From: Dehalococcoidia bacterium | GTDB taxonomy: Bacteria > Chloroflexota > Dehalococcoidia > Lucifugimonadales > SHYT01 | Reading direction: 5' to 3' | NCBI GenBank assembly: GCA_009692665.1 | Contig: SHYT01000003.1 | Location: 62,001-126,000 of the forward strand | DNA: 64,000 nucleotides | Notes under the pieces: model-generated | Databases searched by the model: none | The model's input: the letters and a program-made list of their open reading frames with translations, nothing else | What the model was told of the DNA's origin: nothing | Position numbers and translations under genes: made by a program | Shown: one piece after another, positions 48,393 to 50,892 of the stretch | Layout: each line of letters starts with the position of its first letter | Numbering within the stretch: the stretch's first letter is position 1

Positions 48393-49511
48393 ATGGCGCA
48401 ATCGCGTCCACTGCAATCGCTGGACATGATGGTGAACATGGGGCCGCAGCACCCCAGCACGCACGGCGTCTTCCGCATGGTGCTGTGGGTGGACGGCGAG
48501 TACATCGTGGAGGCCGAGCCATACATCGGCTACCTGCACCGCGGCACGGAGAAGCTGTGCGAGGGCGAGCTGTACCCGCAAATCATCACGCTCTTTGACC
48601 GGCTGGACTACCTGGCGAACTTCAACAATGAGTGGACGCTCTGTCTGGCGATGGAAAAGCTGATGAGCGTGCAGGTGCCGGAGCGCGCCGAGTACATCCG
48701 CCTCATCCTCTGTGAGCTGAACCGTATCGCGAGCCACATGCTGTTCTACGGTACGATGGGCCTGGACGCGGGCGCTATGACGCCGGTGATGTGGGGTTTC
48801 CGCGAGCGCGAGCGCATCCAGCGCCTATTCGAGGCGACGAGCGGCGCGCGCATGATGCACAACTACTTCCGGATCGGCGGCATTAAAGAGGATGTGCCAG
48901 AGGACTGGAAGGCCCGTGTGAGCGGGCTGGCCTCAGAGCTGGAAAAGAGCATCGAAGAGTGCGACAAGCTGCTCACTTATAACGAGGTGTACCTGGTCCG
49001 CTCCGTCAACGTCGGTAAGCTTTCCGCCAAGGAAGCACTGGAGTGGGGCGTAACCGGCCCGTGCCTGCGCGCTTCCGGTATCCCCTACGACGTGCGCACG
49101 TCTGAACCGTACTCGCTCTACAATCGGTTCCAGTTCGACATCCCGGTGGGCAAGAACGGGGACACGTGGGACCGGTACGCGTTGCGGGTTGAAGAGATGC
49201 GGCAGTCGGTGAAGATCATCAAGCAGGCGCTGGGGCAGATGCCGGATACCGGGCCGTTCATGGCGACCGGCGTGCGGCGCATCCCCAGACCGCCCAAAGG
49301 CGAGGTGTACCTTGGCACTGAAAACCCACGTGGCGAGTTTGGCGTGTACATAGTGAGCGACGGCGGCGATAAGCCGTACCGCTTGAAGATTCGCCCGCCG
49401 TCCTTTGTGAATTTGCAGGCGCTGAAGGCCATGCTCCGCAACTCGTACATTGCGGACTCGGTCATGATCCTTGGCTCCCTGGACATTGTGCTTGGCGAGG
49501 TGGACCGTTAA
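48393..49511 (+). CDS. nuoD: NADH-quinone oxidoreductase subunit D
   Basis: VNMGPQHPSTHGVFRMVLWVDGE; C-term DIVLGEVDR. Confidence 0.97.
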   Translation: MAQSRPLQSLDMMVNMGPQHPSTHGVFRMVLWVDGEYIVEAEPYIGYLHRGTEKLCEGELYPQIITLFDRLDYLANFNNEWTLCLAMEKLMSVQVPERAEYIRLILCELNRIASHMLFYGTMGLDAGAMTPVMWGFRERERIQRLFEATSGARMMHNYFRIGGIKEDVPEDWKARVSGLASELEKSIEECDKLLTYNEVYLVRSVNVGKLSAKEALEWGVTGPCLRASGIPYDVRTSEPYSLYNRFQFDIPVGKNGDTWDRYALRVEEMRQSVKIIKQALGQMPDTGPFMATGVRRIPRPPKGEVYLGTENPRGEFGVYIVSDGGDKPYRLKIRPPSFVNLQALKAMLRNSYIADSVMILGSLDIVLGEVDR

Positions 49512-49621
49512 TGACGTGGTTTGGATGGGTCGCGAGTCTCGGTGGCATCCTGTCAGTTCTCTGCGTGTGCGGCGTCTTGGGCGTGTTCCTGGCGACCATG
49601 AAGGGTGAGCTGGAGCGGTAA
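49511..49621 (+). CDS. 36-aa single-TM small protein between nuoD and nuoH, overlapping TAATG on both sides
   Basis: nuoD stop TAA overlaps ATG (TAATG) and its stop TAA overlaps the nuoH ATG: MTWFGWVASLGGILSVLCVCGVLGVFLATMKGELER*. Confidence 0.75.
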   Translation: MTWFGWVASLGGILSVLCVCGVLGVFLATMKGELER

Positions 49622-50892
49622 TGGACCACTGGTTTGCGGTCGCCGCGTCCATAGGCGGCGTGCTGGCGATAAGCTGCTTCCTGGCCGTGGGCGGGATGTT
49701 CGTGGCCATGATGTTCGGCTGGAAGTTCGCGGTGCTGACCGGGCTGGCGCAAACCGGCGCGGCGCTGGTCACGGCTATTGTGGCGCTGCTGCTCATCTTT
49801 GGCGGATGGCGCATGGTGTTCATCGCCGCGGGCACTGTGGGTCTGTTCGCGTTCCTGTCCGTGGCGGTCCTGGCTATCACGCTCTACGAACGAAAAGTGC
49901 TCGCGCGGTTCCATCAGCGGCTCGGGCCGATGCGTGTGGGGCCGCACGGCATTCTGCAGCCGCTTGCGGACGCCATTAAAATTGTGACCAAGGAAGACAT
50001 CATGCCCGCGTGGACAGACCATGCGGTGTTCTGGTTGGCGCCCATTGCGTTCTTCATCCCCACGTTCCTCATCTGGCTGGTGGTGCCGTTTGCAGACGGG
50101 TGGGTCGTCGCGGACATGGAGCTGGGCCTGCTGTACCTGGTGGCGTTCTCTGTGCTGGCCATTGCGGGACTGTTCATGGCGGGATGGAGCTCCGCGAACA
50201 AGTACAGCATGATAGGCGGCCTGCGGGCGATTGCGCAGCTCATCAGCTATGAGATCCCCATCATCGTGATTGTCATCACGCTGGGCCTGACCGCCGGGTC
50301 GCTGAACATCAGCGCCGTCGTGAACGCGCAGAACACTGCGTGGTACATCCTGACGCAGCCGCTGGCGTTCGCAATCTTCTTCCTGGCGGGCCTGGCGGAG
50401 ATCGGCCGGACGCCCTTCGACATCTACCACGCGGAATCGGAAGTCATGGGCGGTCCGTTTCTGGAGTACAGCGGCGCACACTGGGCCATCTTCTATCTGG
50501 CCGAGTACATTAACACCTTCCTGCTAGGCGTGTTCGTCACGCTGCTGTTCCTTGGCGGCTGGCTCGGGCCAGTGCTGCCCGCCATCTTATGGTTCTTCAT
50601 CAAGGTGTTCGCGGTCATTGCGGTGATGTTCTGGTTCCGCGGCACGTTCCCGCGCTTCCGCATTGACCAACTGATGTCGCTGGGGTGGAAGTTCCTGATT
50701 CCACTGGCCTTCGTGAACTTCATCGTCACGGCTGTGGTAGCCTTCTACGGGCTGCCCGCGTATGTGTTGGCAATTATCGAACTGGCGGCACTGGTGGGGA
50801 TCGCAGTCCTGGTGCAGTCGAAGCTGACTTCACCGAGCCGGCGGCCGACGCTGCGGCTCATATCTGCGAGGGAGTTGCGTGATGCTCAATAG
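49621..50892 (+). CDS. nuoH: NADH-quinone oxidoreductase subunit H with extended N-terminus
   Basis: ERKVLARFHQRLGPMRVGPHGILQPLADAIKI, AEIGRTPFDIYHAESEVMGG. Confidence 0.96.
   Translation: MDHWFAVAASIGGVLAISCFLAVGGMFVAMMFGWKFAVLTGLAQTGAALVTAIVALLLIFGGWRMVFIAAGTVGLFAFLSVAVLAITLYERKVLARFHQRLGPMRVGPHGILQPLADAIKIVTKEDIMPAWTDHAVFWLAPIAFFIPTFLIWLVVPFADGWVVADMELGLLYLVAFSVLAIAGLFMAGWSSANKYSMIGGLRAIAQLISYEIPIIVIVITLGLTAGSLNISAVVNAQNTAWYILTQPLAFAIFFLAGLAEIGRTPFDIYHAESEVMGGPFLEYSGAHWAIFYLAEYINTFLLGVFVTLLFLGGWLGPVLPAILWFFIKVFAVIAVMFWFRGTFPRFRIDQLMSLGWKFLIPLAFVNFIVTAVVAFYGLPAYVLAIIELAALVGIAVLVQSKLTSPSRRPTLRLISARELRDAQ

Follow-up and report, generated by a model that had tools for sequence, protein, structure and literature searches.

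An overlooked, family-specific microprotein gene between nuoD and nuoH of Dehalococcoidia, which apparently arose as a duplicate of the NuoH leader helix

Introduction

What is encoded by a 36-codon reading frame squeezed between nuoD and nuoH, and where did it come from? To our knowledge, it is mostly obscure how the numerous one-helix subunits of respiratory complexes arose, since sequence similarity to the core subunits that they accompany can rarely be recognized. The locus that raises the question lies in a window of 64,000 nucleotides from the genome of a Dehalococcoidia bacterium (G000), within an 11-gene complex I operon of the order nuoA-B-C-D-(small ORF)-H-I-J-K-L-M-N. This genome has a single NuoH and no NuoF, that is, a complex I free of the NADH module. 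A sequence-only reading of the window had described the frame as a transmembrane microprotein tied by TAATG to both neighbors, and had proposed that it is a small paralogous subunit of complex I born from the first helix of NuoH. Here we examined the frame by ORF reading, similarity to this leader helix, codon tests and hydropathy, and compared it in three genomes of its family, G000 and two Dehalococcoidia MAGs from the deep water of Lake Baikal (G001 and G002).

Results

The small ORF (positions 49511..49621, + strand) encodes a single-TM peptide of 36 aa, MTWFGWVASLGGILSVLCVCGVLGVFLATMKGELER, followed by a stop. The preceding nuoD (48393..49511, +; 372 aa) ends in GTTAATG, its TAA and the small-ORF ATG at 49511 having one A in common, while the last A of the small-ORF TAA is the first base of the ATG of nuoH (49621..50892, +; 423 aa); the overlap is of 1 nt on each side, exactly as the sequence-only reading had it. 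Its place inside the nuo operon and its single predicted TM helix are in keeping with an accessory-subunit gene. A stop-start overlap between nuoD and nuoH is, however, the rule in this order: in most of 29 relatives nuoH starts at offset -3, overlapping the nuoD stop, and in two of them at offset 0. As such coupling, by TAATG or RTGA, is normal at this junction, the upstream TAATG of the small ORF is an inherited arrangement which alone is no evidence of anything special; what stands out is the peptide. In one genome of the set (G006, locus L018) a hydrophilic ORF of 27 aa (MSEDTGARGEMPLPQPVDCGRRGVVGR) is TGATG-coupled behind nuoD; it is missing in a congener (G043, L016) and looks like a chance spacer ORF.

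NuoH itself carries an N-terminal extension of 61-66 aa, as had been noticed from the sequence. The Pfam NADHdh match starts at residue 73, and solved NuoH/ND1 chains align with the G000 protein only from about residue 62 on. A structure prediction of moderate confidence (pLDDT 67.7), used for the helix count alone, gave helices at residues 2-32, 34-61 and 63-97 ahead of the ERK loop. The first two are extra: a leader helix, TM-a (residues 2-32; 49624..49716, +), which is either the template of the small ORF or its paralogue, and a second helix, TM-b (residues 34-61; 49720..49803, +), which precedes the canonical TM1. Neither has a counterpart in any solved NuoH/ND1 sequence; a fold search with the predicted NuoH returned NuoH/ND1 chains, as expected, and did not inform on the extra helices. 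In the literature that we searched, no description of this extension or of the small ORF was found. Families f6 (L004, L005) and f21 (L006) have NuoH extensions of their own, with one and two extra hydrophobic helices, respectively; the two-helix extension of G022, from f21, showed no significant BLASTP match to that of G000.

When the 36-aa peptide was compared with the whole G000 genome, the only matches were the peptide itself and residues 4-33 of NuoH (47% identity, E 0.004). Windows of 42 residues were compared across ten of the Nuo proteins (all but NuoC: A, B, D and H-N); the one at NuoH position 1 scored 77, against at most 34 for any that lay elsewhere than at the N-terminus of NuoH. 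The resemblance also exceeded that of shuffled copies (z = 8.9, p about 5e-5), and the small copy of G002 was even closer to its own leader by the same procedure (z = 14). The similarity thus goes beyond composition and hydrophobicity, as is expected of a paralogue; chance hydrophobic similarity is ruled out by the shuffles and by the low scores of the remaining operon helices. The peptide did not match the NADHdh (PF00146) or NuoH profiles, and within NuoH only residues 1-33, which lie outside PF00146, were resembled. Against PDB chains there was nothing better than E 0.55, and against Pfam only DUF5692 appeared, an identity that we set aside since its score was under the cut-off (14.1 bits vs 27; E 0.028). 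An assembly or frameshift artefact was likewise discarded: the copies differ at 45% of their bases, the leader is present in both and the G002 layout is independent. These comparisons give good support to the view that the small ORF encodes a diverged duplicate of the helix that leads NuoH.

The junction itself suggests how this copy could have been made. The nuoD tail plus ATG (49494..49513, +; GGCGAGGTGGACCGTTAATG), the putative 5' end of a duplicated unit, carries the SD-like motif GAGGTGG, and what appears to be a second copy of this tail (49604..49623, +; GGTGAGCTGGAGCGGTAATG) comprises the 3' end of the small ORF and the nuoH start, with an SD-like GGAG for nuoH. The two stretches are identical at 16 of 20 bases, with an offset of 110 which is the same as that between the two starts, as would be left by the tandem duplication of a unit of about 110 bp; in the same sense, the peptide end GELER echoes the NuoD end GEVDR. 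Such a duplication over the nuoD/nuoH junction would be the simplest history of the small ORF. The unit would have run from the last nuoD codons through the first helix of nuoH, and its product, nuoD - TAATG - [leader helix] - TAATG - nuoH, would have kept every reading frame intact, the copy supplying the helix, a stop of its own and, for the start that follows, an SD-like motif already in place. The tail match could also come from selection of the SD motif and is less certain than the homology with the leader. Taken with the shuffles, the genome search and the clearer copy in G002, it nonetheless upholds the proposal of a small paralogue derived by duplication of the leader helix.

The same ORF was found in G002 (L003:2881-3000:-), where it encodes 39 aa, MSWLGVAAIIGAIIALGVFTGVLTMFKFVGEDPPSRVQQ, directly after nuoD with TAATG. 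NuoH of G002 begins MSWLGVFAIIGGVVALMVFAGVLGMFTFVGRDP, and the small copy is identical to this leader at 20 of 29 core residues. Here the small ORF ends 78 nt ahead of nuoH, so the perfect translational coupling on both sides that had been claimed holds for G000 and fails for G002. G001 has neither the small ORF nor a broken remnant of it at the junction, nuoH starting on the nuoD stop, and a profile search of its whole genome detected no small copy elsewhere; its NuoH carries the same two-helix extension. The family tally is then the leader in three genomes and the small ORF in two of the three. A profile of small copies and leaders gave nothing convincing outside the family among 250 genomes of the order and 393 from the class, and a scan of genome and viral contigs yielded no further small copy; as far as we searched, the NuoH leader appears confined to this family. 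No match to the NuoF-type family PF01512 was obtained in G000 or G001, which therefore would have an 11-subunit complex I; in G002, PF01512 matched twice, and besides the NuoH with the leader there is another that lacks it.

In a tree of nine concatenated Nuo proteins, G001 and G002 grouped together (support 100) with G000 outside; therefore, the ORF was either gained once and then lost in G001, or gained twice. Two independent duplications, in G000 and in G002, would concern the origin only and be compatible with any function. They are favored by the patchy presence of the ORF, given that the tree joins G001, which lacks it, to G002; by the nuoD-tail remnant, which was not detected in the G002 copy; and by the small copies being nearer to their own leader (20/29 in G002, 13/29 in G000) than to each other (9/29), a resemblance that favors either separate gains or gene conversion. 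However, the start M[ST]W[FL]G is common to both small copies and the G002 leader, whereas the G000 and G001 leaders have M[DA]HWF, and these patterns fit a single ancient duplication, the leader of G002 having been converted. Under a single gain, recombination between the copies would offer an easy route for the loss in G001. With three genomes the event counts of both histories are about equal, and we place the two-gain history slightly short of an even chance. The G002 NuoH (L003, G002:C6) shows a 13-residue insertion at about residues 33-50, making a longer acidic linker between the leader and the second extra helix, which suggests that the small copy gave rise to this leader by re-fusion or conversion.

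If the duplicate were a neutral relic, it would be translated through its position, the peptide would be idle, and the frame would stay open only since a frameshift or stop would uncouple nuoH. In accordance with this, the ORF is missing in G001, it is short (in GC-rich DNA, open stretches of 36 codons are no rarity) and in G000 the loss of the frame would break the TAATG coupling to nuoH. The small copy and the leader of G002 differ with dN 0.27 and dS 1.01, about half of the synonymous sites being changed; the maximum likelihood omega was 0.10 and neutrality was rejected (LRT, 2lnL 16.2; 0/150 neutral simulations as extreme). Letting only the small copy be neutral, in a model that takes equal age for both copies, made the fit worse by 9.96 in 2lnL, a deficit reached in 2/150 simulations. 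For the G000 pair the neutrality test gave 8.86 (0/150 simulations) and the small-copy-neutral deficit was 3.55 (4/150). The tests use 29 codons, near synonymous saturation, and depend on how codon frequencies are modeled: when these are set uniform, G002 keeps its result (LRT 8.8; small-copy-neutral deficit 3.6), but a neutral small copy is no longer rejected in G000. On those 29 codons, they support purifying selection on the peptide firmly for G002 and weakly for G000. Moreover, despite the near-saturation of synonymous change, the diverged copy has stayed in frame and has kept its length, its hydrophobic helix and the pattern of its charges, which fits a translated and selected peptide. 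A mere relic is hard to reconcile with G002, where the ORF is detached from nuoH and yet keeps its helix, and we consider it unlikely. Conservation at sister junctions, on which the sequence-only reading had staked its proposal, is thus split: in G002 the frame is open, TM-like and constrained, while in G001 it is lacking.

A role in which the peptide has little weight and the ORF serves as a translational relay, tuning stoichiometry through spacing and reinitiation between nuoD and nuoH, would agree with the precise TAATG junctions that flank the ORF in G000 and with the SD-like motif from each tail, but it appears very improbable, as the direct overlap is the rule of the order without such an ORF, a relay has no need for a helix resembling the NuoH leader, and reinitiation is almost abolished by a gap of about 20 nt (PMC10666635), so that the 78-nt gap excludes a pure coupling role in G002.

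Discussion

Our data point to a real, overlooked, family-specific microprotein gene that arose by duplication of the NuoH leader helix and whose product probably belongs to complex I as a small accessory subunit. The best explanation, to which we assign a probability of roughly 0.6, is that of a maintained duplicate of the leader helix acting as a single-helix accessory subunit beside NuoH. Against the subunit reading, G001 manages without the ORF, which implies that it is not essential across the family.

Hydropathy shows a single hydrophobic segment in each of the two small peptides (means of 2.5 and 2.4; about residues 10-28 in G000), and all their charged residues lie at the C-terminal end, which by the positive-inside rule predicts an N-out/C-in topology. 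The canonical NuoH TM1 of complex I runs from periplasm to cytoplasm, and the first extra NuoH helix should therefore likewise be N-out/C-in. According to the accessory-subunit reading, ribosomes ending nuoD would restart on the small ORF and, in the case of G000, once more on nuoH; the peptide of 36-39 aa would insert as one helix with its N-terminus outside and its K/R residues at the cytoplasmic C-terminus. It might then pack in or beside the groove of the fused leader, near TM-a and TM1 of NuoH at the heel of the membrane arm, and stabilize NuoH or its assembly as a lineage-specific subunit. We infer both translation and the subunit role, which we regard as plausible, and this position is deduced from a leader that is itself in no solved structure. 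An enrichment of short gene overlaps has been reported for the subunits of heteromeric complexes (PMC10666635).

There may be about an even chance that this locus displays a new bacterial complex I accessory subunit near its birth, with a leader helix tandemly duplicated over a gene junction and now independent. One operon holds the helix both free and fused, and close relatives differ in its presence and possibly in conversion between the copies. As the parent helix can still be recognized beside its copy, in one operon, and a sister genome shows the layout without the copy, the birth of such a subunit becomes directly testable. Furthermore, duplication of a TAATG junction represents a frame-safe route to new operon genes, and the small ORF is an example of a gene missed by annotation size cutoffs.

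Several small subunits of known respiratory enzymes invite comparison. Subunit IIa (CbaD) of the ba3-type cytochrome oxidases is a single helix (34 aa in Thermus), often unannotated, encoded beside the core subunit in which it takes the structural place of a helix, and this helix may be fused to the core subunit or separate (PMC3128077). Unlike the small ORF, CbaD replaces a helix missing from subunit II, to which no sequence similarity was reported (PMC3128077), whereas here NuoH retains its own helix, of which the small protein is an additional, recognizable copy; our peptide had no Pfam or PDB-sequence match to CbaD. NdhP and NdhQ of cyanobacterial NDH-1, a bacterial relative of complex I, are single-helix subunits of <5 kDa, and NdhP, whose N-terminus is predicted on the lumen side, is required for stable assembly of NDH-1L (PMC4131877). 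In contrast to what we propose, NdhP is located at the distal end and not at the NuoH/NdhA heel, and has no known derivation from a core-subunit helix; no sequence relation to NdhP or NdhQ was found among PDB chains. At the heel of mitochondrial complex I, the TM accessory subunits NDUFA1, NDUFA3 and NDUFA13 pack on ND1, the NuoH counterpart; NDUFA1 fills the groove between TMH1 and TMH7 of ND1, and NDUFA13 makes up for a helix present in Thermus Nqo8 (PMC8762328). These proteins are, however, eukaryotic and longer, their genes are not beside that of ND1, and PDB chains of the NDUFA1 type showed no sequence relation to the small peptide. CydX of cytochrome bd oxidase has 37 aa, a variable sequence and a frequently unannotated gene in the operon of its enzyme (PMC4325964); it belongs to another enzyme and is not known to stem from the duplication of a core helix. 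In summary, separate single-helix subunits that replace core helices are a known kind among respiratory enzymes; a visible derivation from the leader of a neighboring core subunit is, as far as the literature searched shows, new.
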